Below, one piece after another: positions 12,272-38,433 of a DNA stretch of 39,959 nucleotides. The stretch comes from Granulosicoccus sp. (GTDB lineage Bacteria > Pseudomonadota > Gammaproteobacteria > Granulosicoccales > Granulosicoccaceae): positions 1 through 39,959 of the forward strand of contig JAHDGK010000044.1 in assembly GCA_020627685.1 (NCBI GenBank), in the 5' to 3' direction. The position numbers were made by a program, and so were the translations under genes. Below the pieces are notes generated by a model, which was not told where the DNA came from, made no database searches, and worked only from the letters and a program-made list of their open reading frames with translations. Within the stretch, counting starts at the first letter, position 1. Each line of letters starts with the position of its first letter.

Positions 12272-12347
12272 GTTACACAAGCATTGCGGTATAGGCTTAA
12301 CTCACACCCAAGAGTGTCACAGAAAAACGCACGATTTACGCGTTAAA

Positions 12348-13766
12348 TCAGGCGTTACCAAAGAGCGGTATTAAGCTTCGCCAGTCGCTATCGAAATTTG
12401 CGAGGTCCGGGAATACGTCGGACATGTCACTGTCGGTAACGCCCATCCATTCGGCCAAAGCTGCGCCGTATTGATTGATGGATAGAGAGGGTATAACGCG
12501 ACCCTTGTCACTACTATCGTCACTGGCGCCTAAGTCGTAGCTGGGTAGGCTTCCGAACATTTGACCGCCGTTTACCGCACCACCCATTACCATATAGTGT
12601 CCACCCCAGCCATGATCTGAACCATCACCATTGATGGTTAAGGTTCTACCAAAATCAGAGGCTGTGAATGAGGTGACTTTGTCAGTCATATTCAGCTCAT
12701 CCAGTGTGGCCTGGAAGTCTGTCAGGCTACGGTTTAAATCTGTTAGCAGCGCTGTGAGTCTGGGGCTTTGGTTATCGTGAGTATCCCAGCCGCCTGCGCC
12801 GACAAAAAATATCTGACGCTTCATGCCCAGCATGCTGTTGCTGGCAATCATTCTGGCCACCATGCGAAGCTGTGTCGCCAGTCGACTGCTTCCATCGTAT
12901 GGCGTTGTAAAGTTTGCGTTAGCAGCCAGTGCATCATCGATTTGGCTGGCAGCATTCTTTGCAATATTGAACGAACTGGCCGCCTGCTGCTTGAGCGGAT
13001 GCGCAGACGTCAATGCGAGAATTTGTTGCAGTGCTGTGTCTCGAGCATTGTTGCTCGCACTTCTGGCTGAATCCAGATACGAAAGCAGGCTTAACCCCGA
13101 GTTAGCGTTCAAGCCTAATGGTTGAACCTGATCACCCGGAAGCCAGTAGTTGGTTCCGGCGACTGAAAAGCTGGGTGGAAGCGTGGCACCCGGATTGGCG
13201 TGCTGAAGTAGGTCGGCCATCCTGCCGCCCCAGCCCGTCCCCACTAATGAGGCTGGAGAGCTGCTTAGACCCTTCAACCATTGTTCCTGTTGATGATTGT
13301 GCGCAAACAAGTCGCTGGGAATTAACGGGCTTTCCGCCTCGTACAAACTTCTGTTGACCGGGGCAATCAAATTACCCGCATTGCCAATCACTGCCAGTTT
13401 CCCGCTGGTGTACATAGAGTGCAGATCGGAGAGTAGCGGGTTAAAGCCTATCGTTGCTGAGGGAGAATCGAGCAGTAATGAATCATGCGGTACGGCCAAT
13501 GGACCCCGGCTGGCAGCATAGCGGTTGTAAGCGTCTTGCTCGGCAGGCACGAACATGTTGAATGAATCACTGCCGCCATAGAGGAATACACAAACGAGGG
13601 CCTTATAGTCGGTTAATGCTGCATAGTCACTACTCGCTGCTAATGCTGAGCCAATGAGGCTTAACTTGCCATTCATGGCTGTAGCGCCTGTGCCCAATAA
13701 AGACACGGCAGCGAAGTTCTTTAGAAAGTCTCGACGTTCACGACGAGTTTTATGATTGTGCGACAT
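12348..13766 (-). CDS. DUF1501 family protein, Tat-exported
   Basis: The 472-residue protein starts with a twin-arginine leader (RRERRDFLKNFAAVSLLGTGATA), then ALVCVFLYGGSDSFNMFVPAEQDAYNRYAASRG, the hallmark of DUF1501 proteins, a branch of the alkaline-phosphatase/sulfatase superfamily. Later blocks typical of the family are GWDTHDNQ, TSFTASDFGRTLTINGDGSDHGWGGHYMVMGGAVNGGQMFG and a C-terminal WMGV..SDMSDVFPDL. The biochemical role is unknown; the protein should be folded in the cytoplasm, perhaps with a metal, and exported by Tat. Its ATG is 14 bp after the stop of the DUF1800 gene, and DUF1800-DUF1501 pairs are recurrent in bacteria, so the two are expected to work together in the envelope. 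Confidence 0.92.
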   Translation of the reverse strand: MSHNHKTRRERRDFLKNFAAVSLLGTGATAMNGKLSLIGSALAASSDYAALTDYKALVCVFLYGGSDSFNMFVPAEQDAYNRYAASRGPLAVPHDSLLLDSPSATIGFNPLLSDLHSMYTSGKLAVIGNAGNLIAPVNRSLYEAESPLIPSDLFAHNHQQEQWLKGLSSSPASLVGTGWGGRMADLLQHANPGATLPPSFSVAGTNYWLPGDQVQPLGLNANSGLSLLSYLDSARSASNNARDTALQQILALTSAHPLKQQAASSFNIAKNAASQIDDALAANANFTTPYDGSSRLATQLRMVARMIASNSMLGMKRQIFFVGAGGWDTHDNQSPRLTALLTDLNRSLTDFQATLDELNMTDKVTSFTASDFGRTLTINGDGSDHGWGGHYMVMGGAVNGGQMFGSLPSYDLGASDDSSDKGRVIPSLSINQYGAALAEWMGVTDSDMSDVFPDLANFDSDWRSLIPLFGNA

Positions 13767-13780
13767 AGTGATTCCGTTTC

Positions 13781-16700
13781 CTACATTTGCACGAGATAGT
13801 CGGGCGAGGCCATGATCAAGGTAATGGCGTCGCGGATTCTCTGACTCAGCCCATCTTCGTCGGATGGGAGCGCTTCAATGTGGGATTGAAGAATGTTTCT
13901 AAGCCCGTCCGACATATTGCCACTGAGAAGGATCAGGTTTAAATGATCCAGTAGGGCCGTAGCGTCGTCGGCTAGTGTGAGTTCGTAGGTGTAATCCAGA
14001 TAAGATGTTGCTTGGCCGTTATCGTATTGATATCTGGCATATCCAACCTGAATCTGGCGCCCGATTCTATTGCTGGTGGCAAGTTCATTACCCGCTGTGA
14101 ACAGTTCGAATTCTGGAGCATCCAGGTTGCCGTCAGCGACAGGGCCAGCCGGTGAGTAGGAGGGCATGAAGAAGTTGAATACGGACGGCGAGCGCAGTAC
14201 CGCTTGCCCCGTCACTGTCTCCAGAGTATCCATTTGTGGCGACACGGTATTGAATTCGTTTCGGTCAGAGTTGTTCTCACCACGCTGAACGTTAAACGCT
14301 CTCCATAGATGACTTAGTCTTAGAACAGGCTCGCGTAGTTTTCCGTAGTGGCTGATGTCTGCCGGGATGGTACGCGCTTCGGCATCTAGCAGAATCGCTT
14401 TGACGACAGCACCTAAATCGCCGCGAACACCGGCACCGTTGTTATTGAATACTTGTGCAACCCTTGCAACGTAAGCTGGGGTTGGATTACTGGTGACCAG
14501 TCGTTTAATAAGCTGCTTTCCGATGAAAGGGCCGACATTCGGGTGGTTGAAGATGTTATCAAGTGCCAGGTCTAAATCCTGTCTCGCTGTGTTTCCCGCC
14601 GGAGCCACGACACCATTGAGTAGGGTCTTGGCGTCGGTATCGTGGTATTCCTCAAACGGAAGCATCTGATTAATCATGTCAGCATGCGTATTCAGTGCTC
14701 TGTCCCACTCACCTGCATCTGCATAGTTCCAGCCGGTGAAAACGCGTGCAAAGGCTTCAATTTGATCCTGATTAAACGATGGTGAGCCATCTGTGGTTCC
14801 ATCAATGTTTAAGTTGTGCAAACCGATCGAGAACAGCTGTAGTATTTCACGTGCATAGTTTTCGTCTGCACGCGTTGAGCCGTCTGCCTGTCCTTTTGCA
14901 TTTTGTAGCATGCTTAAGTACAGCCCCATAATCGGGCTAAGCGTGACCTCTTCTAATAGGTCTCTGTAATTCCCGAACGAGTAGTTACGAAGCGTATCGT
15001 AGTAATTGGTGACGCCATACTGTGCGTTTGACAGGGTAAAGCCGGTATCAGATATCACGAATATTTGGCTGAGCGCGAAAGCGACACGTTGCCGGAGCTG
15101 ATCATCTCCTTCAACAACATCCGTCCACCAAACTTCATGCCGAGGGCCGCGGCCACTGTTATTGGAATGCACTAGGACATAATCTAGATGAGGCGGACCC
15201 TTTGATGAGAGCTGCCAATCAACCCAATTTTCGATACCCATAGTTTTGACTTGCTCAATACCGGCAAGCGTTGGACCGAAAGTAGCTTGAGTCAGTAATC
15301 TAGCCGCTTCAAAATCCGTGGCCGGTGTTCCGGCACTCAACACGGTGACCGTGGCTGTCTTCTCGTTCGTTAGGCCGGCAGTATCAGTCACTGTGAGTTT
15401 GGCCGTGTAGGTACCAGCAGTGTCATAAGTATGGCTTTGCGTGTCGTCGTTGTCGTTGGTGACTTTTTCACTGCCGTCTCCGAAATCCCACTTGTATTCA
15501 ACAATCGCATCGTCATCGCTGGAAGCGGAGGGGTCGAACATAATAGTGAGCGGTCCAACACGGGTTGCGCTTGAATCGTCAAATCCCAACATTGAGAACA
15601 GTGCAACAGGCTCTGTGGGAGGCACAACGACTAATGGGCGCTCCGTCCATTCCGATGCAATGTCTTGGCGCTTGGCGCGAACCTGCCACGTGTGCGAGTC
15701 GCTGATGGTCAGGTTGAGCTCAACGGTAATAGAGCAAGTATCAGTGTCGCAGTAATCTGATGCGGAGAGGTCAGCAAGCGTTGGCAGCGCTCCGGAATTG
15801 CTATCGGTGATATAAAAATCGTAGGTGGTCGCGGCGTCTACTGAATTCCATTGAAAGACGACGGTGTCCTCCGATTCGAATTCCGTGGTTGCCAAAGGTA
15901 GTAACAGGGCAGGCGCTGTTGGGCCCACGACAGCGAATGCTCGTTCCGACCAATCTGATTCAACGTCGTCTTTTTTAGCTTTAACGTGCCAGCTGTGTGA
16001 ATCGCTAATGCTTAAATCATGATCGATGCTAATTGTGCAAGAACCGGCTGCGCAAATATCAGCTGGAAGAAGTCCTGTCTGTGAATCCTGCGCTCCTTCA
16101 TTTCCATCAGTAATGAAGAACTCATAACTGGTTGCGTCGTCGACAGCTTGCCATTCAAAGTTGATTTGTGAGTACACATCAAACGATGCTGAAGCCAGTG
16201 GTAAGACCAGAGTAGGCGCCTCAGGTGGCTCGATGATTTCAAGCACGACCGAGAATGTGGACACGTTGGAGTCGGTTTGCCCAACTGAGTTTATGGCGCT
16301 AACTTGCCACTCATAGTTATCAGCAATGGGTAGCGCAACGGTTGCCACAAAGTTGCATTGTCCTGCATCGCAATTGTTGGTAAGTACATCGGTAGTTACC
16401 GCATTTCCATCTGCGCCCGGCAATGTAATTTGGTAACTCTCAGCACGCTCGGCGGCAGCCCAGGAGAACGTGGTTGCTTCGTTTTGAACCACGCTTTCGC
16501 CCGATGCCGGTGCTGTTAATACAAATGTTGCAGGGGCTTCTGTGTGGGGTGCTAGGGCTGTAAAGAACGACTGAGATAGAGATGAAGAGCCCTGTGAATT
16601 TCTAGCACGTACTCGCCATTGTTTTGATGGGCCTAAATCGGTATTGATGACGTCAGTGACAGAACAAACATCATCGGTGCAGATCGAGCTCGCAACCAGA

Positions 16701-18487
16701 TCAGTGTATGAAATGGTGAATTTCTTGATTGTGTTGTCATATAGGTAGAAGTCATAGGTGACAGCGTTGTTGTCGCGTTGCCACTGAAAAGTGACCGTGC
16801 TTCCGATGACTAAGTCTGAGTAGCTTTGCGGAGACAGAGTTATAACGCTGCCAGGCGCTTCTGTGGCAGCTGGAATGAGCGAGAAGTCTCTGCTGGTATA
16901 GGATGATGCCCCAGCAGCATTTGTCGCTCTAACCTGCCATTGGTAGGTGTCACCGGCTGGTAGGTCCATTAATATGGTAGCCGAGCACGTGTCAGCACCG
17001 CAGTTCGAATCTCGAACGAAAGCGTTGGTTGCATCCAGATCCGCATTGTCTGTATCAATAACTTGAAGTTCGTAGGCTGATGCCGTTGCAACTTTGTTCC
17101 AGATAAACTGAATGTTCTGTCCGGCTTCGGCGACAGCGTCATTGAGCGGGTTTGCAAGTACTGGTGCAGCCGGAGCTTCGAATACAGGCTCTACAGAGTT
17201 AAAGTACGTTTGTGTCCATCCTGACTCACCCTGGGAATTTACCGCTTTGACTCGCCAAGTATGTCGATCGTAGATAGGAACGCTGACCACCGTTTCGTAT
17301 CGACACAAACCTGAGTCGCAAAGATCGAATGCCCGCAATCCGGTAACAATCGGAGATACATCACCATTAGGATCGTTGTTAAAGAAAAAGAACTCATAGG
17401 TTTCTACTTGTTCTTCGTGTTGCCAGACAAATTCATTAACAAGGCCGCTGTTCAAATCAGCGTTGTCGACCGGTGAAACAATGGCCGGGGTGGCGGGAGC
17501 TGATGTCGCTAGCGCAACAATGAGCATTCGGTCTTCAGACCATTCTGATGCACCGCCTGTGTTGCTCGCTCTGACCCGCCAGAACAACTCCGAACCGGTT
17601 GCAGCCGTAACAATGGCATTTAAGGCGCAGCCCCCGGTTGCGCAATTGCTGGGGTCGACCGTCTGATTGGCAACGAGCATTGTTGGGACTTCAGGGTCCT
17701 CTGTCTTGGTGAAAATTTCAAAATCGTAGGAGTCGACGTTGTCTTCAACCGCCCAGCTGAACTCAACCGTTGTGCTTGACTGAATGATTTCATCAGTGGA
17801 AGGCGTAGCAAGGTTAGGCGACTCGGGCGCCAAGATCACAGGTTCCAGAACCGTATGCGTTTGGGTGTGGTGATCAATCTGACCGCTGGCATCAAGAACA
17901 ATAAGGGTTACATACCATGTGCCAACGTCCGGAAAGATGACCTGTGCTTGTCCAGAACCTAAATCTGTGAGAGTAGCACTTCCGTTTTGAGCGTTGTCAG
18001 ACCAAGCGTCCCAGATATAGTGGGTGATGGTTTGAGAGCTGGTGCTAGATGAGCCATCGATGTTTCTGGTGAGCTCATAGTCAGATTCTGTGGGAGCTGC
18101 GAGCTGTGCGTCTGGGGGTGTGCTGGCACTGAATGTTGAGACTGCGGTGCGATCAACTCGGAGTGGTGCATTTGGCAAAGCACTCAAGGAGGCACTGCCC
18201 GGTGTGCCGCGCTGTGCGGCGCGTGAGTACCACATGGCAGCTGCAGATCGGTTAGCCGGAGCACCGCCGGTGCCCATTGCCAGTCGATTGCCCCATTCGT
18301 GCTGAGCCAACTCGTCGCCTTTGACGACAAGGCGAAGCAGTGCCTCGGTGGAGAGTCCCGGGTAGTTGTCAGCGAACGCTTCAATATCGCTGGTGCTGGC
18401 GGCCGTTCCCAAACTGCTGAAGAAAATCAGAAATGCGCAGAAGGCACTTCTACTTAACGCTTTTCTAATTGTTATTAAACGGCTCAA
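13781..18487 (-). CDS. Giant exported DUF1800 protein with Sel1, PKD and seven Fn3-like repeats
   Basis: The 1568-residue protein has a signal peptide (1-30), one Sel1/TPR-like unit (about 50-90, AAAMWYSRAAQRG), a PKD-like domain (about 130-215), seven fibronectin-III-like repeats of about 105 residues (219-960), a PKD domain with WDFGDGS and HTYDTAGTYTAKLTVTD (about 962-1055), and a C-terminal DUF1800 domain (about 1058-1568, starting FEAARLLTQATFGPT). Every Fn3-like repeat carries a C-x4-C pair before a strand ending in WRV/WQV-A; these probably form disulfides outside the cytoplasm. DUF1800 function is unknown. The partner DUF1501 gene follows at 14 bp. The start is weak: TTG at 18487, with an in-frame stop just upstream and no good ribosome binding site. 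Typical DUF1800 proteins are about 450-600 aa, so this is an unusually extended form. Confidence 0.9.
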   Translation of the reverse strand: MSRLITIRKALSRSAFCAFLIFFSSLGTAASTSDIEAFADNYPGLSTEALLRLVVKGDELAQHEWGNRLAMGTGGAPANRSAAAMWYSRAAQRGTPGSASLSALPNAPLRVDRTAVSTFSASTPPDAQLAAPTESDYELTRNIDGSSSTSSQTITHYIWDAWSDNAQNGSATLTDLGSGQAQVIFPDVGTWYVTLIVLDASGQIDHHTQTHTVLEPVILAPESPNLATPSTDEIIQSSTTVEFSWAVEDNVDSYDFEIFTKTEDPEVPTMLVANQTVDPSNCATGGCALNAIVTAATGSELFWRVRASNTGGASEWSEDRMLIVALATSAPATPAIVSPVDNADLNSGLVNEFVWQHEEQVETYEFFFFNNDPNGDVSPIVTGLRAFDLCDSGLCRYETVVSVPIYDRHTWRVKAVNSQGESGWTQTYFNSVEPVFEAPAAPVLANPLNDAVAEAGQNIQFIWNKVATASAYELQVIDTDNADLDATNAFVRDSNCGADTCSATILMDLPAGDTYQWQVRATNAAGASSYTSRDFSLIPAATEAPGSVITLSPQSYSDLVIGSTVTFQWQRDNNAVTYDFYLYDNTIKKFTISYTDLVASSICTDDVCSVTDVINTDLGPSKQWRVRARNSQGSSSLSQSFFTALAPHTEAPATFVLTAPASGESVVQNEATTFSWAAAERAESYQITLPGADGNAVTTDVLTNNCDAGQCNFVATVALPIADNYEWQVSAINSVGQTDSNVSTFSVVLEIIEPPEAPTLVLPLASASFDVYSQINFEWQAVDDATSYEFFITDGNEGAQDSQTGLLPADICAAGSCTISIDHDLSISDSHSWHVKAKKDDVESDWSERAFAVVGPTAPALLLPLATTEFESEDTVVFQWNSVDAATTYDFYITDSNSGALPTLADLSASDYCDTDTCSITVELNLTISDSHTWQVRAKRQDIASEWTERPLVVVPPTEPVALFSMLGFDDSSATRVGPLTIMFDPSASSDDDAIVEYKWDFGDGSEKVTNDNDDTQSHTYDTAGTYTAKLTVTDTAGLTNEKTATVTVLSAGTPATDFEAARLLTQATFGPTLAGIEQVKTMGIENWVDWQLSSKGPPHLDYVLVHSNNSGRGPRHEVWWTDVVEGDDQLRQRVAFALSQIFVISDTGFTLSNAQYGVTNYYDTLRNYSFGNYRDLLEEVTLSPIMGLYLSMLQNAKGQADGSTRADENYAREILQLFSIGLHNLNIDGTTDGSPSFNQDQIEAFARVFTGWNYADAGEWDRALNTHADMINQMLPFEEYHDTDAKTLLNGVVAPAGNTARQDLDLALDNIFNHPNVGPFIGKQLIKRLVTSNPTPAYVARVAQVFNNNGAGVRGDLGAVVKAILLDAEARTIPADISHYGKLREPVLRLSHLWRAFNVQRGENNSDRNEFNTVSPQMDTLETVTGQAVLRSPSVFNFFMPSYSPAGPVADGNLDAPEFELFTAGNELATSNRIGRQIQVGYARYQYDNGQATSYLDYTYELTLADDATALLDHLNLILLSGNMSDGLRNILQSHIEALPSDEDGLSQRIRDAITLIMASPDYLVQM

Positions 18488-27328: not shown

Positions 27329-28513
27329 TTACTGATTGTCCAGAACATCCCAGCACGCGCCCATGGTGTGATAGTCCGTTTTCCCGGGAGGCGATTTTAA
27401 ATTGTCGAATGCCGACCCGTCTCGGTTCTTTATCCGAAACCACGCCCCTTGCTCGTGATCAATCAGCGTATCCCAGCTGTATTTCCAAAGCTTGTTGTAG
27501 GCATCTAGATAGCGCTCTTCCTGAGTGGTGGCATACAGGCGCCATGCTGCTGCAAAGGCCTCGGCGTGTACCCAGAAATATTTGTGGGTATCGGCAAAGG
27601 TTCCATCCGGTGCGAATCCGTATACCAACCCCCCGTGCGTTTCATCCCAGCCTTTTTCCATGGCCACATCGAATAATTCCGCAGCGCGTTCGGGCCACAC
27701 CGGATTCGGTTGCCACTTGTTTAACTCAAGCAGTAATTTGGTCCATTCAACCTGATGGCCAGGCTGGAAACCCCAAGGTTTGAAAAGGTCGTCGGGCTTG
27801 TCGATGTTGTACTGCATATCACACTGCCAGCTGGTGTCGTAGTGCTCCCAGATGAGCCCGTCATTGATACCGGCCAAATCGACGGCAAAACGGCCCGCCA
27901 GAATCGATGCGCGATCCAGATACCGCGTATCACCAGTGGCCTTCATGGCTAGCAGCAATGCCTCGCAGGTATGCATGTTGGCGTTTTGCCCACGATAGGG
28001 GTCTAGGATGGTCAGCGTTTCATCCAGTTCGTCTGCATAGGCTTGTGATTCTTCATCCCAGAAATGGGTTTCCATGAAGTCCCATACCTGTTCAATAGTT
28101 GCCACTTCCTCCTTTACACCTGCCAATACGAGGCTTGCCGCGGCGAGCATGACAAACGCGTGACCGTAGGCCATGGCTCGGCCATCGGTAACCACTCCGT
28201 TTTCGATAACCCAGGCATAGTGGCCGGAAGGTTGTTTATGCACTCTCTTTATAAAGTCCATCCCATCGACAGCCCATTGCAGTTGTTCTGCATTTTCGCT
28301 GCGCTGGTAGGCTGTGGCGTAGTTGAAGACGAATCGGGTAGAGCTGACGAGATGTCGCATGCCTTCGTCGTAGACGGAGCCATCATCGAGAAAACACTGA
28401 TGAAATCCGCCGTCCGGCGCTCGCACATTGGGTGCGTAGAAATCCAGAATAGACTGAATATGCTGGTCTAAAAAGGTCGCGTCTGCGAAATCGGGGTAGC
28501 TTGTTTCGTTCAT
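27329..28513 (-). CDS. AGE-family sugar 2-epimerase / isomerase
   Basis: The 394-residue protein is an (alpha/alpha)6-barrel enzyme of the N-acylglucosamine 2-epimerase family. Key blocks are RHLVSSTRFVFNYATAYQ (conserved Arg), GQNANMHTCEALLLAM with the active-site His, GFQPGHQVEWTKLLLELN (conserved His pair and Glu), and KYFWVHAEAFAAAWRLY. Known members epimerise GlcNAc or cellobiose or isomerise mannose or sulfoquinovose; by length and motifs it is closest to the mannose isomerase/YihS type, but that is a guess. It is the first gene of a unit with the GNAT and dioxygenase genes. Confidence 0.9.
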   Translation of the reverse strand: MNETSYPDFADATFLDQHIQSILDFYAPNVRAPDGGFHQCFLDDGSVYDEGMRHLVSSTRFVFNYATAYQRSENAEQLQWAVDGMDFIKRVHKQPSGHYAWVIENGVVTDGRAMAYGHAFVMLAAASLVLAGVKEEVATIEQVWDFMETHFWDEESQAYADELDETLTILDPYRGQNANMHTCEALLLAMKATGDTRYLDRASILAGRFAVDLAGINDGLIWEHYDTSWQCDMQYNIDKPDDLFKPWGFQPGHQVEWTKLLLELNKWQPNPVWPERAAELFDVAMEKGWDETHGGLVYGFAPDGTFADTHKYFWVHAEAFAAAWRLYATTQEERYLDAYNKLWKYSWDTLIDHEQGAWFRIKNRDGSAFDNLKSPPGKTDYHTMGACWDVLDNQ

Positions 28514-32317: not shown

Positions 32318-33736
32318 ATGATCAAACCGAGAATAATTCAGACAGCGCTAGCTGGCGTTTTCGCATTGGGCTTAAGTGCCTGTAGCGACGGAACCGTGCA
32401 AGTACAAGATACCGTTGGAAAATCACAGCCCGCCAATCTAGGGCCAGAGAATATTGTGGGCACAGCCGTAGCGGCAGGCGATTTTACGATTCTGGCTACG
32501 GCCCTGAGTGCCACCGGCCTGGATACCGTGCTGGCAGATGGCGACCGAAACTTCACAGTATTTGCACCGACAGACGCCGCGTTTAACGAGCTAGGGCAGG
32601 ACACTATCAACAACCTACTCAACGATACGGAGCAGCTAAAAGACATACTGCTTTATCACGTACTGGCTGATACCGTGGTTAATTCAGCTACGGCAATTGG
32701 GCTGGCTGGTCAAACTGTGAATGCTGCCAATGGCGATTCCTTAAGCCTGTCCGTAGAGTCGGGCAATCTGTTCATTAACATGTCGCAGGTCGTCAGCGCG
32801 GATGTCGGAGCAAGCAACGGCATTATTCACGTTATTGATAAGGTGCTGCTACCGCCGCCGGATATGACGGCAGAAGACCCGGCACTGCCTAATATTGTAG
32901 AAACAGCTGTAGCGGCAGGTTCTTTCAATACACTCGTGGCGGCATTGCAAGCGACAGGTCTTGACGCCACGTTAAGCGGTGAAGGACCGTTTACGGTGTT
33001 TGCACCTACCGATGCAGCATTTGCAATACTGGGTGAAGACACCATTGGTGCCTTGTTGAACGACACCGATACACTAAGCGATATCTTGTTGTACCACGTG
33101 ATTGCCGGACAAGCAGTCGATGCGACAACAGCGATAAGTCTTGCCGGACAGTCGGTTGAAATGGCAAATTCTGATTCGGTAGCGCTAAGTTTAAATAACG
33201 GAAATTTACTGGTGAACCGCTCCGTTGTTACCACAACTGACATTCAAACCAGCAACGGTATTATTCATGTCATAGATGCTGTTTTGCTTCCACCCAGCGA
33301 TGGCAATACAAGCGGCGAAAGTTCTGAAAACACAATCTATACAGCCGCTATTAATGCAGGGCTGGATACCTTCGTAGCAGCGGCCAAAGTGGCTGGTTTG
33401 AAGGATGCGTTGAATCACCCCGGAGACATCTATACGGTGTTCGCGCCTAGTGAAGCGGCTTTTGCTGCTCTGGGTACTGGCACACTCAACACGTTGGTAA
33501 ACGACCCTGATACGCTACGAAATATTCTTCTCTATCACGTTCTACCTGGAACCACGGTAGATGCTGCGGCAGCCGCCGGGTTAGTAGGTATTGATATTAC
33601 TGCGGGCAATGGCACAACACTGCAGCTTAGTCAAAGAAGCGATGGCTTGTATGTGCAGAACTCTCGCATAGTCATCACCGATATACCGGCAGTCAATGGC
33701 GTCATTCACGTTATTGATGCGGTGCTCATTCCATAG
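32318..33736 (+). CDS. Triple fasciclin (FAS1) domain lipoprotein
   Basis: The 472-residue protein begins with a lipoprotein signal (MIKPRIIQTALAGVFALGLSAC). Three FAS1 domains follow (about 45-178, 183-325 and 338-472). Each has the family's H1 block (FTVFAPTDAAFNEL; FTVFAPTDAAFAIL; YTVFAPSEAAFAAL), a YHV motif (LLYHVLADTV, LLYHVIAGQA, LLYHVLPGTT) and the terminal H2 block (NGIIHVIDKVLLP, NGIIHVIDAVLLP, NGVIHVIDAVLIP). FAS1 domains mediate cell adhesion or surface interactions. The protein is expected on the outer membrane. The high identity of copies 1 and 2 suggests internal duplication. A clear terminator follows. Confidence 0.95.
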   Translation: MIKPRIIQTALAGVFALGLSACSDGTVQVQDTVGKSQPANLGPENIVGTAVAAGDFTILATALSATGLDTVLADGDRNFTVFAPTDAAFNELGQDTINNLLNDTEQLKDILLYHVLADTVVNSATAIGLAGQTVNAANGDSLSLSVESGNLFINMSQVVSADVGASNGIIHVIDKVLLPPPDMTAEDPALPNIVETAVAAGSFNTLVAALQATGLDATLSGEGPFTVFAPTDAAFAILGEDTIGALLNDTDTLSDILLYHVIAGQAVDATTAISLAGQSVEMANSDSVALSLNNGNLLVNRSVVTTTDIQTSNGIIHVIDAVLLPPSDGNTSGESSENTIYTAAINAGLDTFVAAAKVAGLKDALNHPGDIYTVFAPSEAAFAALGTGTLNTLVNDPDTLRNILLYHVLPGTTVDAAAAAGLVGIDITAGNGTTLQLSQRSDGLYVQNSRIVITDIPAVNGVIHVIDAVLIP

Positions 33737-36150: not shown

Positions 36151-38433
36151 ATGAAACCGCTGTATTGGATCGCACCACCGTTGCTTTTGCTGTCATTTTC
36201 TTCCGCCTATGCGCAAAGCAACAGCGCCTGTGACGCTAACGATCCGCTTGTCATCATCTCCGCGACTGATGACGGGCTTTTTGAAGAAACCCATGGACCC
36301 GAGAACACCATTGACGGAGATTTTGACCCGGATTCTCGTTGGTCAAATGAGTCTCAAGGTTCTCCGAAGGATCTCGTTCTGGATTTAGGCGCCAGCCAAA
36401 CAGTAAAGGCGGTTCAAATTGCTTGGCATAAGGGCAACAGCCGTAAATCAACGTTTTCAATGTCAGCTTCAAACGATGGTAGTGAGTATCAAACTATTGT
36501 TGCTACCAGACAGTCCGGTGGTACAACGCTGGAGTTCGAAACTTATGAGTTGACTCCCGTCCAGGCTCAATTCATCAAAATTACGGCCAGCGGAAATGAA
36601 AGCAATGACTGGAACAGTGTGGTTGAAGTCAGTGTTTCAGGCTGTGGTGTACCGGTGGAAAAACCAGCTACACCTATCGTTACCGAGCGAAAGGGCCAAG
36701 GTGTCAACGGACTAAAGCTAGATGCGACACCGGGAGAGAATTTTGACTTAACGGGGTGGTACGTCACCACACCAGCAGATGACGATGGGGATGGAAAAGC
36801 CGACAGTGTTTACGAGAATGAGCTGGAAGCCGGATGGACTGACCCTCGATACTTTTACACTGACCCTGCCACAGGTGGAATGGTGTTTCGCTCTACACCT
36901 GCAGGCGCAAAGACCTCAAAGAACACCAAATACACGCGTACAGAATTGCGTGGCATGTTGCGACGGGGTGACTACACCATCGAAACCCGATTGCCCGGTG
37001 GTGTCCCTAATAAGAACAACTGGGTATTTTCATCGGCGCCTATGAATGCGCAAGCTCAATCCGGTGGAGTTAATGGCAAGTTAAACGCCACGCTGGCTGT
37101 TAATCAAGTCACCAGACTTGGTAAGGCTTACCAGGTAGGGCGCGTCATCATCGGGCAAATACATGCCAAGGATGATGAACCCATCCGGCTTTACTATCGA
37201 AAGCTGCCAAAGAACAAGTTTGGTTCTATCTATTACGCACACGAGCCTGCACAAGGTAAAGAGCAATGGATAGAAATTATTGGTAGCCGATCGGATAGAG
37301 CACCTAACCCTGATGACGGTATTGCGCTCGACGAACGTTTCAGCTACCAAATTGAAGTTAAAGGCGAAGAACACGCCGGTTTAGTAAAGCCTATGTTGCA
37401 CGTCAAGATTATTAGAGATGACGGTAGCGAGATTGTTGCTGATCCTTTTGATATGAGCGAGAGTGGTTTCAGTATCGAAAACGAGTTTATGTTTTTCAAA
37501 GCTGGTGCCTACTCACAAAACAACTCCAGCCCGATCCCTGAGACTGACTTCGATAAAGTCACATTCTATGCGCTGGACTACTCGCACGATGCACCGCCTG
37601 AGGGGGTTAACGTAACCGCAGTGCAAGCAGCCACAGAACCTGCAGCCATTCAAGCTGAAGCTGCGCCCGCAGTTGCGGGTATCATCTTTGAAGATACCTT
37701 TACTGATGGCGATAGAAGCAACGGCGCTGATGAAAATGACACGGCATGGTGGACAACAACCAATAGCAGCGCCATTGAATCCGGCGCGGATTATCTAGGG
37801 TTGGTGTCAGGTGGTTCGGGCAGAGGCATAAGGACCACTTTTGCTCCGCAGATGCTTGCAGACGGGCAGACATTGTCCGCAAGTTTCACTTTTACAACAC
37901 CTGATTCTGTGGGCTCGGACAGAGACTCAGCGTTGCGTGTTGGTCTGTATGACAAACTAGGACGTGAGGCCTTAGAAGGTGATTTATCAGCTTCATCTAA
38001 AAAGCCGAATACAAACTATGACGGGCTACCAGGCTATATGATTGATTTCGATATCAATCTTGCCAACCCGGACGATGCGAACATCGATATCCGCAAGCAT
38101 AAAGACGATACGCACGGTAGATTGTTGGGAACAACCAAAGGGTATAAGCGACTTGGTGGTGGTGGGAGCGCCTATAGTTTCCAGCCCAATACTACCTACA
38201 CAGGAATGATGAGCATCACTAAAACCGCCGCTGGGCTAACCATCTCAGGAATGCTTAGTAGTGACGGTAATACCCTGAGTGAGTTCTCTCACGTAGATGA
38301 AGGTAGCGATACCAATAACTTCGGTATGCTGGCGTTTCATGTCAACAGTAAAACCTTCGGCTCTTCAAAGAAGCCAGGCGAGCCTGACAACGGTATTGAT
38401 TTTTCCAATATTAAACTTGAAGTGACTGAATAG
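36151..38433 (+). CDS. Secreted PL7 alginate lyase with F5/8C (CBM32-like) and C-terminal unknown domains
   Basis: The 760-residue protein has a signal peptide (1-22, cleavage after AYA), a discoidin/F5/8C-type carbohydrate-binding domain (about 34-165, ending KITASGNESNDWNSVVEVSVSGC), and a polysaccharide lyase family 7 domain (about 190-480). The PL7 motifs are RTELR at 263-267, QIH at 336-338 and FFKAGAYSQ at 448-456 (family consensus YFKAGxYNQ), carrying the Arg, Gln/His and Tyr454 of the active site. An Ala/Glu-rich linker (about 490-512) leads to a C-terminal domain (about 513-760) that begins IFEDTFTDGDRSNG and looks like a jelly-roll. PL7 enzymes cut alginate by beta-elimination; QIH members often favour poly-G or mixed stretches. 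Expected outside the cell. Confidence 0.93.
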   Translation: MKPLYWIAPPLLLLSFSSAYAQSNSACDANDPLVIISATDDGLFEETHGPENTIDGDFDPDSRWSNESQGSPKDLVLDLGASQTVKAVQIAWHKGNSRKSTFSMSASNDGSEYQTIVATRQSGGTTLEFETYELTPVQAQFIKITASGNESNDWNSVVEVSVSGCGVPVEKPATPIVTERKGQGVNGLKLDATPGENFDLTGWYVTTPADDDGDGKADSVYENELEAGWTDPRYFYTDPATGGMVFRSTPAGAKTSKNTKYTRTELRGMLRRGDYTIETRLPGGVPNKNNWVFSSAPMNAQAQSGGVNGKLNATLAVNQVTRLGKAYQVGRVIIGQIHAKDDEPIRLYYRKLPKNKFGSIYYAHEPAQGKEQWIEIIGSRSDRAPNPDDGIALDERFSYQIEVKGEEHAGLVKPMLHVKIIRDDGSEIVADPFDMSESGFSIENEFMFFKAGAYSQNNSSPIPETDFDKVTFYALDYSHDAPPEGVNVTAVQAATEPAAIQAEAAPAVAGIIFEDTFTDGDRSNGADENDTAWWTTTNSSAIESGADYLGLVSGGSGRGIRTTFAPQMLADGQTLSASFTFTTPDSVGSDRDSALRVGLYDKLGREALEGDLSASSKKPNTNYDGLPGYMIDFDINLANPDDANIDIRKHKDDTHGRLLGTTKGYKRLGGGGSAYSFQPNTTYTGMMSITKTAAGLTISGMLSSDGNTLSEFSHVDEGSDTNNFGMLAFHVNSKTFGSSKKPGEPDNGIDFSNIKLEVTE

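Follow-up and report, generated by a model that had tools for sequence, protein, structure and literature searches.

The locus described here raises the question of why a DUF1800 protein should carry seven similar repeats that each keep one pair of cysteines, and whether that pair marks a ligand site peculiar to the DUF1800/DUF1501 system or a structural feature of a more widely used domain. The protein is encoded by Granulosicoccus sp. (assembly GCA_020627685.1, contig JAHDGK010000044.1), and the window is the whole stretch of that contig that was analysed, 39,959 nucleotides in length; the host genome assembly comprises 4.9 Mb in 117 contigs. The finding is real but mostly ordinary: what the locus presents is mostly a lineage-specific, cysteine-stapled spacer array of fibronectin type III (Fn3) beads on a DUF1800 protein.

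The gene, its domain layout and its DUF1501 neighbour

The gene occupies positions 13781..18487 on the minus strand, a strand that the sequence-only reading had not given, and all features of this locus described below lie on the same strand. It starts at TTG and encodes a protein of 1568 aa with an apparent signal peptide, the best three named matches of which are Granulosicoccus metagenome contigs. Read by eye in the translation, the N-terminus (aa 1 to ~30; 18398..18487) is likely a Sec signal peptide with cleavage after GTA. The Sel1 domain proposed earlier was reduced to a weak likeness (aa 61-94; 18206..18307), since PF08238 scores 18.6 bits, under its curated cut-off of 30.7. Two PKD domains had also been claimed and these were recovered, PKD_4 reaching 72.1 bits for the whole protein against a cut-off of 27 in two matched stretches: a first PKD-like domain at approximately aa 130-215 (17843..18100; bounds set by eye in the translation) and a second, PKD_4, at aa 980-1049 (15341..15550). 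The DUF1800 domain (aa 1063-1565; 13793..15301), cysteine-free and mostly helical in its model, belongs to PF08811 with 278.7 bits against a cut-off of 26.1, and covers positions 1-418 of the 419 of the profile. A scan against NCBIfam gave nothing above cut-off.

The DUF1800 domain extends to the last residues of the protein. By eye, the translation of all 1568 aa shows neither a lipobox nor a sorting signal, membrane domain or other anchor, and the surface display that had been suggested stays conjectural. The remark that other DUF1800 proteins are shorter holds, with open frames of <800 aa in 67 of 79 relatives, some of which end at contig ends.

The gene is followed, after 14 bases and on the same strand, by a gene for a DUF1501 protein of 472 aa (12348..13766; PF07394, 124.9 bits) with a twin-arginine-like start, RRDFLK. 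A terminator-like stem with a T run lies just past it (12326..12344) and is a consensus match only, such sites numbering 4 in the region against a mean of 6.6 in shuffles. The DUF1800/DUF1501 pairing noted from the sequence was confirmed in 20/20 long relatives fetched, which were hand-picked among the matches listed, and DUF1501 adjoins all four DUF1800 genes of this genome. By phmmer, DUF1501 was detected in 26 of 44 loci, many of them with short flanks, and one copy beside L002 that was missed in this way was found by Pfam. Read by eye, all 20 relatives have a twin arginine near the DUF1501 start, off-pattern in L042, while the strict Tat pattern matches in 2/20.

The other DUF1800 genes of this genome provide two further observations. 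On contig C54 a DUF1800 paralogue (L216:3261-5762) carries a CBM60-like module after DUF1800 (30.6 bits against a cut-off of 28.2) and is then followed by DUF1501. On contig C109 another DUF1800/DUF1501 pair is preceded, at a distance of 98 bases and on the same strand, by the gene for a Thioredoxin_5/DSBA-like protein (L215:4507-5133).

Elsewhere in the window are encoded an alginate lyase (Alginate_lyase2) with an F5/8 type C domain (36151-38433), a GlcNAc 2-epimerase (27329-28513) and a fasciclin protein with three matched stretches (32318-33736). Together these fit a macroalgal life; relatives live on kelp, according to the excerpted source (PMC9238374).

Fold of the seven repeats

The seven repeats, each of ~105 aa with a C-x4-C followed by W(R/Q/H)V, were confirmed, all in register. 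Located from their cysteine positions and the repeat alignment, they run from repeat 1 (17519..17842; C282-ATGG-C287) through repeats 2 (17195..17518; C390-DSGL-C395), 3 (16877..17200; C496-GADT-C501), 4 (16556..16879; C603-TDDV-C608), 5 (16247..16570; C706-DAGQ-C711) and 6 (15929..16252; C812-AAGS-C817) to repeat 7 (15626..15949; C913-DTDT-C918), repeats 2 and 3 being also modelled with AlphaFold2. The protein has 15 cysteines, 14 of which form the seven pairs; the remaining one, C17, lies in the apparent signal peptide, and the DUF1800 domain holds none. From C-x4-C to W-x-V the distance is exactly 16 residues in all seven repeats, and no more than three C-x4-C motifs occurred in any of 20,000 composition shuffles, against the seven observed. 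Pairwise identity among the repeats is 18-42%, a range that marks them as diverged copies. A recent tandem duplication was considered and is ruled out by this range together with the orthologous positions kept.

The Fn3-like character of the repeats was upheld by the AlphaFold2 model of repeats 2-3 and by structural matches, all of which concern a predicted fold. The model has a mean pLDDT of 89.9, and its pTM of 0.60 over two beads leaves any stiffness of the array a conjecture; the tandem alignment A1 is partly out of register among its 17 rows, so that the second modelled repeat is backed by fewer rows. Foldseek returned 681 PDB matches at E <= 0.001, and the best 50 of these 681 are nearly all of Fn3/Ig type by title. 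The top match by VIA reached Z 12.0 with an rmsd of 10.9 over 183 residues, a deviation that we ascribe to a difference in hinge angle, and the match to an Fn3 pair of Clostridium CbhA had Z 11.7 and an rmsd of 4.1 over 171 residues. In the modelled repeats, where the suggested structure prediction was to show whether the cysteines stand together, both pairs flank the same turn, C'-E by strand count. In the first pair, residues 67 and 72 of the model both adopt a strand/bridge state next to the turn, and in the second pair residue 173 is in a loop and residue 178 in a strand, with a short loop spanned between them. The W(R/Q/H)V motif lies on the strand counted as F, at a site where an aromatic residue is usual in Fn3.

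At the level of sequence families the likeness is looser. The whole protein scores 23.3 bits for PF00041 (fn3), below the cut-off of 25, and this profile matches 4 of 22 single repeats at E <= 0.1; Kre9_KNH (PF10342) is matched by the whole protein with 47.0 bits against 24.6 and by 9 of the 22 repeats at E <= 0.1, a match of score that does not imply function. Compared by sequence with the PDB, the repeats found titin as their best and weak match (E 0.0056). They share the strand layout of the fibronectin type III fold (PF00041, PF10342 and Ig_Rha78A_N, PF25788), and match Fn3 tandems structurally, whereas the conserved cysteine pair at C'-E is a feature of these repeats that sets them apart.

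Carriers of the repeat and variation of the array

A limitation of the C-x4-C repeat to DUF1800 proteins is contradicted by its other carriers, which include lipoproteins, a GH16 protein, an M64 peptidase and a trypsin-like protein; the profile search returned the same repeat in unrelated proteins, an outcome that the sequence-only reading had itself named as speaking against it. Within Granulosicoccaceae the profile matched 36 of 48 genomes, and in the present one all seven matches are those of the array. Thirteen short open frames with one or two repeats were fetched, lipoprotein-like Fn3 frames from 13 genomes of the family (L172-L184), of which 9 are flagged by a lipobox rule and the other 4 have a similar motif by eye. 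Twelve larger repeat-bearing proteins were scanned with Pfam. Besides the GH16 protein with five repeats (L192), the M64 peptidase with three (L195) and the trypsin-like protein with four (L196), these comprise proteins with Big_9/cadherin-like domains (L189, L190, L194), DUF1800 proteins again (L185, L191) and frames with no family at E <= 1e-5 (L186, L188, L193 and a 585-aa frame of L196).

Class-wide, in a sample of 229 genomes drawn from a larger class, 5 genomes matched at E <= 1e-6, this one included, and one of the five, which belongs to another family, holds L185, a DUF1800 protein with five repeats. The distribution across family and class, together with the varied carriers, suggests that the bead in its close form belongs mostly to Granulosicoccaceae and serves several kinds of protein. 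More distant Fn3-like repeats of exported proteins, mostly C-x6-C, occur in the M64 peptidase (L154/L195) and the trypsin-like protein (L196); their pair likewise precedes the strand-F tryptophan, but the loop is mostly longer, strand F is worded differently and the profile score is much lower. The C-x4-C pair marks, in consequence, a reusable Fn3 bead and not a special DUF1800 subsystem.

A quick tree of 100 rows, in which the L023 branch is very long, places the window protein among 17 long DUF1800 proteins that form a clade with SH-aLRT 100. Thirteen of these carry 3-7 stapled repeats, counts that may be low for L028, L030, L032 and L044, whose frames start at the end of the piece of DNA fetched; the other four (L034, L036, L037, L039) carry none and form a nested group. 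Of the bead-less proteins two were scanned with Pfam (L034, L039), and both have PKD and Glce_b_sandwich stretches in place of the beads. L033 combines stapled repeats with Glce_b_sandwich and PKD, and Ig- and cadherin-like domains occur in L040, which lies outside the clade. Because the number of beads varies and PKD or another beta-sandwich may substitute for them, the array behaves like a spacer, and comparison of these proteins points to an exchangeable spacer architecture. The loss of the beads in one subclade makes them dispensable there, and they may still have a role elsewhere. All four genomes with a bead-less long DUF1800 protein (G020, G043, G044, G045) nevertheless encode one-bead lipoprotein-like frames (L145, L136, L142 and L139).

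Between the window protein and its relative L035 the DUF1800 domain is 74% identical and corresponding repeats are 42-61% identical, the best match of each repeat lying on the diagonal in 7/7 cases. Such position-specific bead orthologues could mean that the beads have position-specific roles.

Role of the cysteine pair and of the array

A C....C rule served to select the 61 seed repeats, and the invariance of the two cysteine columns among them is by construction; searches with the cysteines blinded are the independent tests, though the blinded profiles derive from cysteine-bearing repeats. Among 148 unique repeats recovered by the profile search, a number that, like the other repeat counts, includes related orthologues, both cysteines are in register in 138; the remaining ten, read by eye, consist of nine with the pair at another spacing and one that is cut short. 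The cysteine-blinded profile, run on loci largely fetched with cysteine-bearing profiles, gave 144 matches; a script recognised the pair in 142 of them, and reading did so in the last two, which are truncated copies of window repeats. In the blinded matches at E < 1e-3 the spacing is 4 residues in 120, 5 in 9, 6 in 7, 10 in 2 and 3 in 1. Across the 48 genomes the blinded search found matches in 32 and the unblinded one in 36, and every place in the blinded list, compared by eye, is also in the unblinded list. An apparent loss of cysteines in the last repeats of L025 and L026 was discarded, because L138 and L133, two loci that overlap them, show a C-x10-C.

The four residues between the cysteines are identical at 51 of 100 positions in pairs of closest repeats, against 1681 of 2537 for the rest of the repeat. 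In three comparisons the loop is the less conserved part: the window protein with L035 (loop 7/28, rest 352/709), L025 with L026 (6/16, 213/405) and L033 with L044 (1/12, 155/302). In the other two it is about as conserved as the rest, namely L030 with L032 (17/20, 415/509) and L028 with L029 (20/24, 546/612). Since two of the five species pairs display no clear difference, these alignments describe a loop that appears free rather than fast-changing throughout.

The proposal of selection on a small disulfide loop or ligand site stands in its first part, the cysteine pair being strongly conserved, and is not supported in its second, because the loop agrees less than the rest (51/100 against 1681/2537) and the spacing ranges from 3 to 10. 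The pair fits a structural staple, a putative disulfide around a free loop, and not a visible ligand site; both its position in the model and the co-conservation of the two cysteines fit a disulfide. A ligand site shared by all repeats does not fit, and position-specific binding is possible. A ligand or metal site at C-x4-C was likewise not favoured, with no conserved loop residues and no fixed spacing. The genome holds one match for DsbB and five of DSBA type, one of the latter being nearer Thioredoxin_5.

The explanation that we regard as probable is a stapled Fn3 stalk joined to a working DUF1800/DUF1501 pair. The seven beads, along with PKD, would form an extended stalk that holds DUF1800 away from the N-terminus. 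By their signals, read by eye, the DUF1800 protein would be exported via Sec and DUF1501 via Tat, and the DsbA/DsbB system would close the C'-E turn of each bead as a small disulfide, which would stiffen the bead and protect it from unfolding and from proteases outside the cytoplasm. The bead would be a stock part of the lineage that recurs in exported proteins of several kinds. Among long DUF1800 proteins its array would grow, shrink or give way to PKD or other beta-sandwiches, with DUF1501 remaining as the neighbouring gene. The activity would reside in DUF1800 together with the apparently Tat-exported DUF1501, and their joint target is probably a polymer beyond the cytoplasm, a link resting on the one CBM60 match and on context. 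Since GspD is present in the genome (610 bits against a cut-off of 351), type II secretion may follow export.

The repeats could instead be adhesion or carbohydrate-binding modules with the stapled loop in the site, the array anchoring DUF1800 to an algal surface polymer. A constant fold that carries a variable loop, the position-specific bead orthologues, the kelp-dwelling relatives (PMC9238374, excerpt), the alginate lyase with its F5/8 type C domain in the window and the CBM60 in a paralogue all suit this idea, but the four commonest residues of each of the four loop columns include no aromatic one, and PKD with another beta-sandwich stands in for the beads in both bead-less orthologues that were scanned, so that we hold it to be unlikely.

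Less likely still, the Fn3 array might be a recognition signal for type II secretion, by analogy with the single-Fn3 loops of the pectate lyases Pel3/PelI. Like the window protein these enzymes are exported and modular, with an N-terminal Fn3; according to the excerpted study (PMC7949064), Fn3 loops 3 and 5 act as signals in them and disulfide formation in the periplasm precedes recruitment, and the genome has GspD above cut-off. Their Fn3 is single, with secretion loops 3 and 5, as compared with the seven-repeat array here. In the same excerpts, however, added substitutions in loops 2 and 4 were without visible effect, the C'-E turn is by strand count nearest to loop 4, and the beads are absent from four orthologues, which makes this signal improbable. 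A metal or redox site at C-x4-C, in place of a structural disulfide, would account for cysteine pairs kept almost without exception, but has very little in its favour when none of the 14 most conserved columns is dominated by His, Asp or Glu, the spacing varies from 3 to 10, the loop residues are variable and the pair sits at a tight turn in the model.

The stapled stalk leaves the DUF1800/DUF1501 puzzle as it is. According to excerpts of published work, some bacterial chitin synthases share conserved operons with DUF1501 and DUF1800 (PMC5122149); the full-length family match and the adjacency seen here agree with that description of PF08811/PF07394, whereas the array ahead of DUF1800, with its seven stapled Fn3 and its PKD domains, is unlike it, and a scan of 24 of the 53 listed ORFs of the window recognised no chitin synthase. 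DUF1800 is rarely named in the literature searched: the excerpts consulted place it in enriched-domain tables for upregulated genes of a calcifying alga (PMC7563939) and list it elsewhere as unknown or in passing (PMC3597751, PMC6653060), and those of a study of PVC bacteria give Akkermansia muciniphila as being without the DUF1501 module (PMC4960237). The literature search did not find fibronectin type III together with Granulosicoccus.

Two database entries are recorded here for themselves. A DUF1800 protein filed in BFVD under an uncultured tailed phage (A0A6J5M749) matches the DUF1800 model (window 13784-15319) with E 1.2e-24, and is either a phage gene or mis-binned bacterial DNA. A DUF1800 gene on a metagenome contig titled Klebsiella pneumoniae (L118) groups in the tree with a row of unclassified Pseudomonadota, next to a group rich in Woeseiaceae, and perhaps comes from a mislabelled bin.

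The real unknown is the helical DUF1800 domain, which is found in 47 of the 48 genomes of the family and whose four copies in the present genome are each paired with DUF1501. Its model, built from 76 rows, is confident (pLDDT 92.6, pTM 0.94) and mostly helix, and its alignment has 38 invariant columns. Against the PDB it gave no sequence match at E <= 1 and no Foldseek match at E <= 0.001, and VIA gave nothing above Z 2.7, to which no weight is attached; a weak or missing match of this kind does not prove a new fold. DUF1501 found nothing better than E 0.11 in the PDB by sequence. As a speculation to which we give only a small chance, DUF1800 may be an undescribed all-helical enzyme fold that acts with Tat-exported DUF1501 on an extracellular polymer, Granulosicoccaceae swapping beta-sandwich arrays (stapled Fn3, PKD, other Ig-like domains, or CBM60 in a paralogue) next to it. 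If true, members of this family would tune the reach or the target of DUF1800 by exchanging whole arrays.
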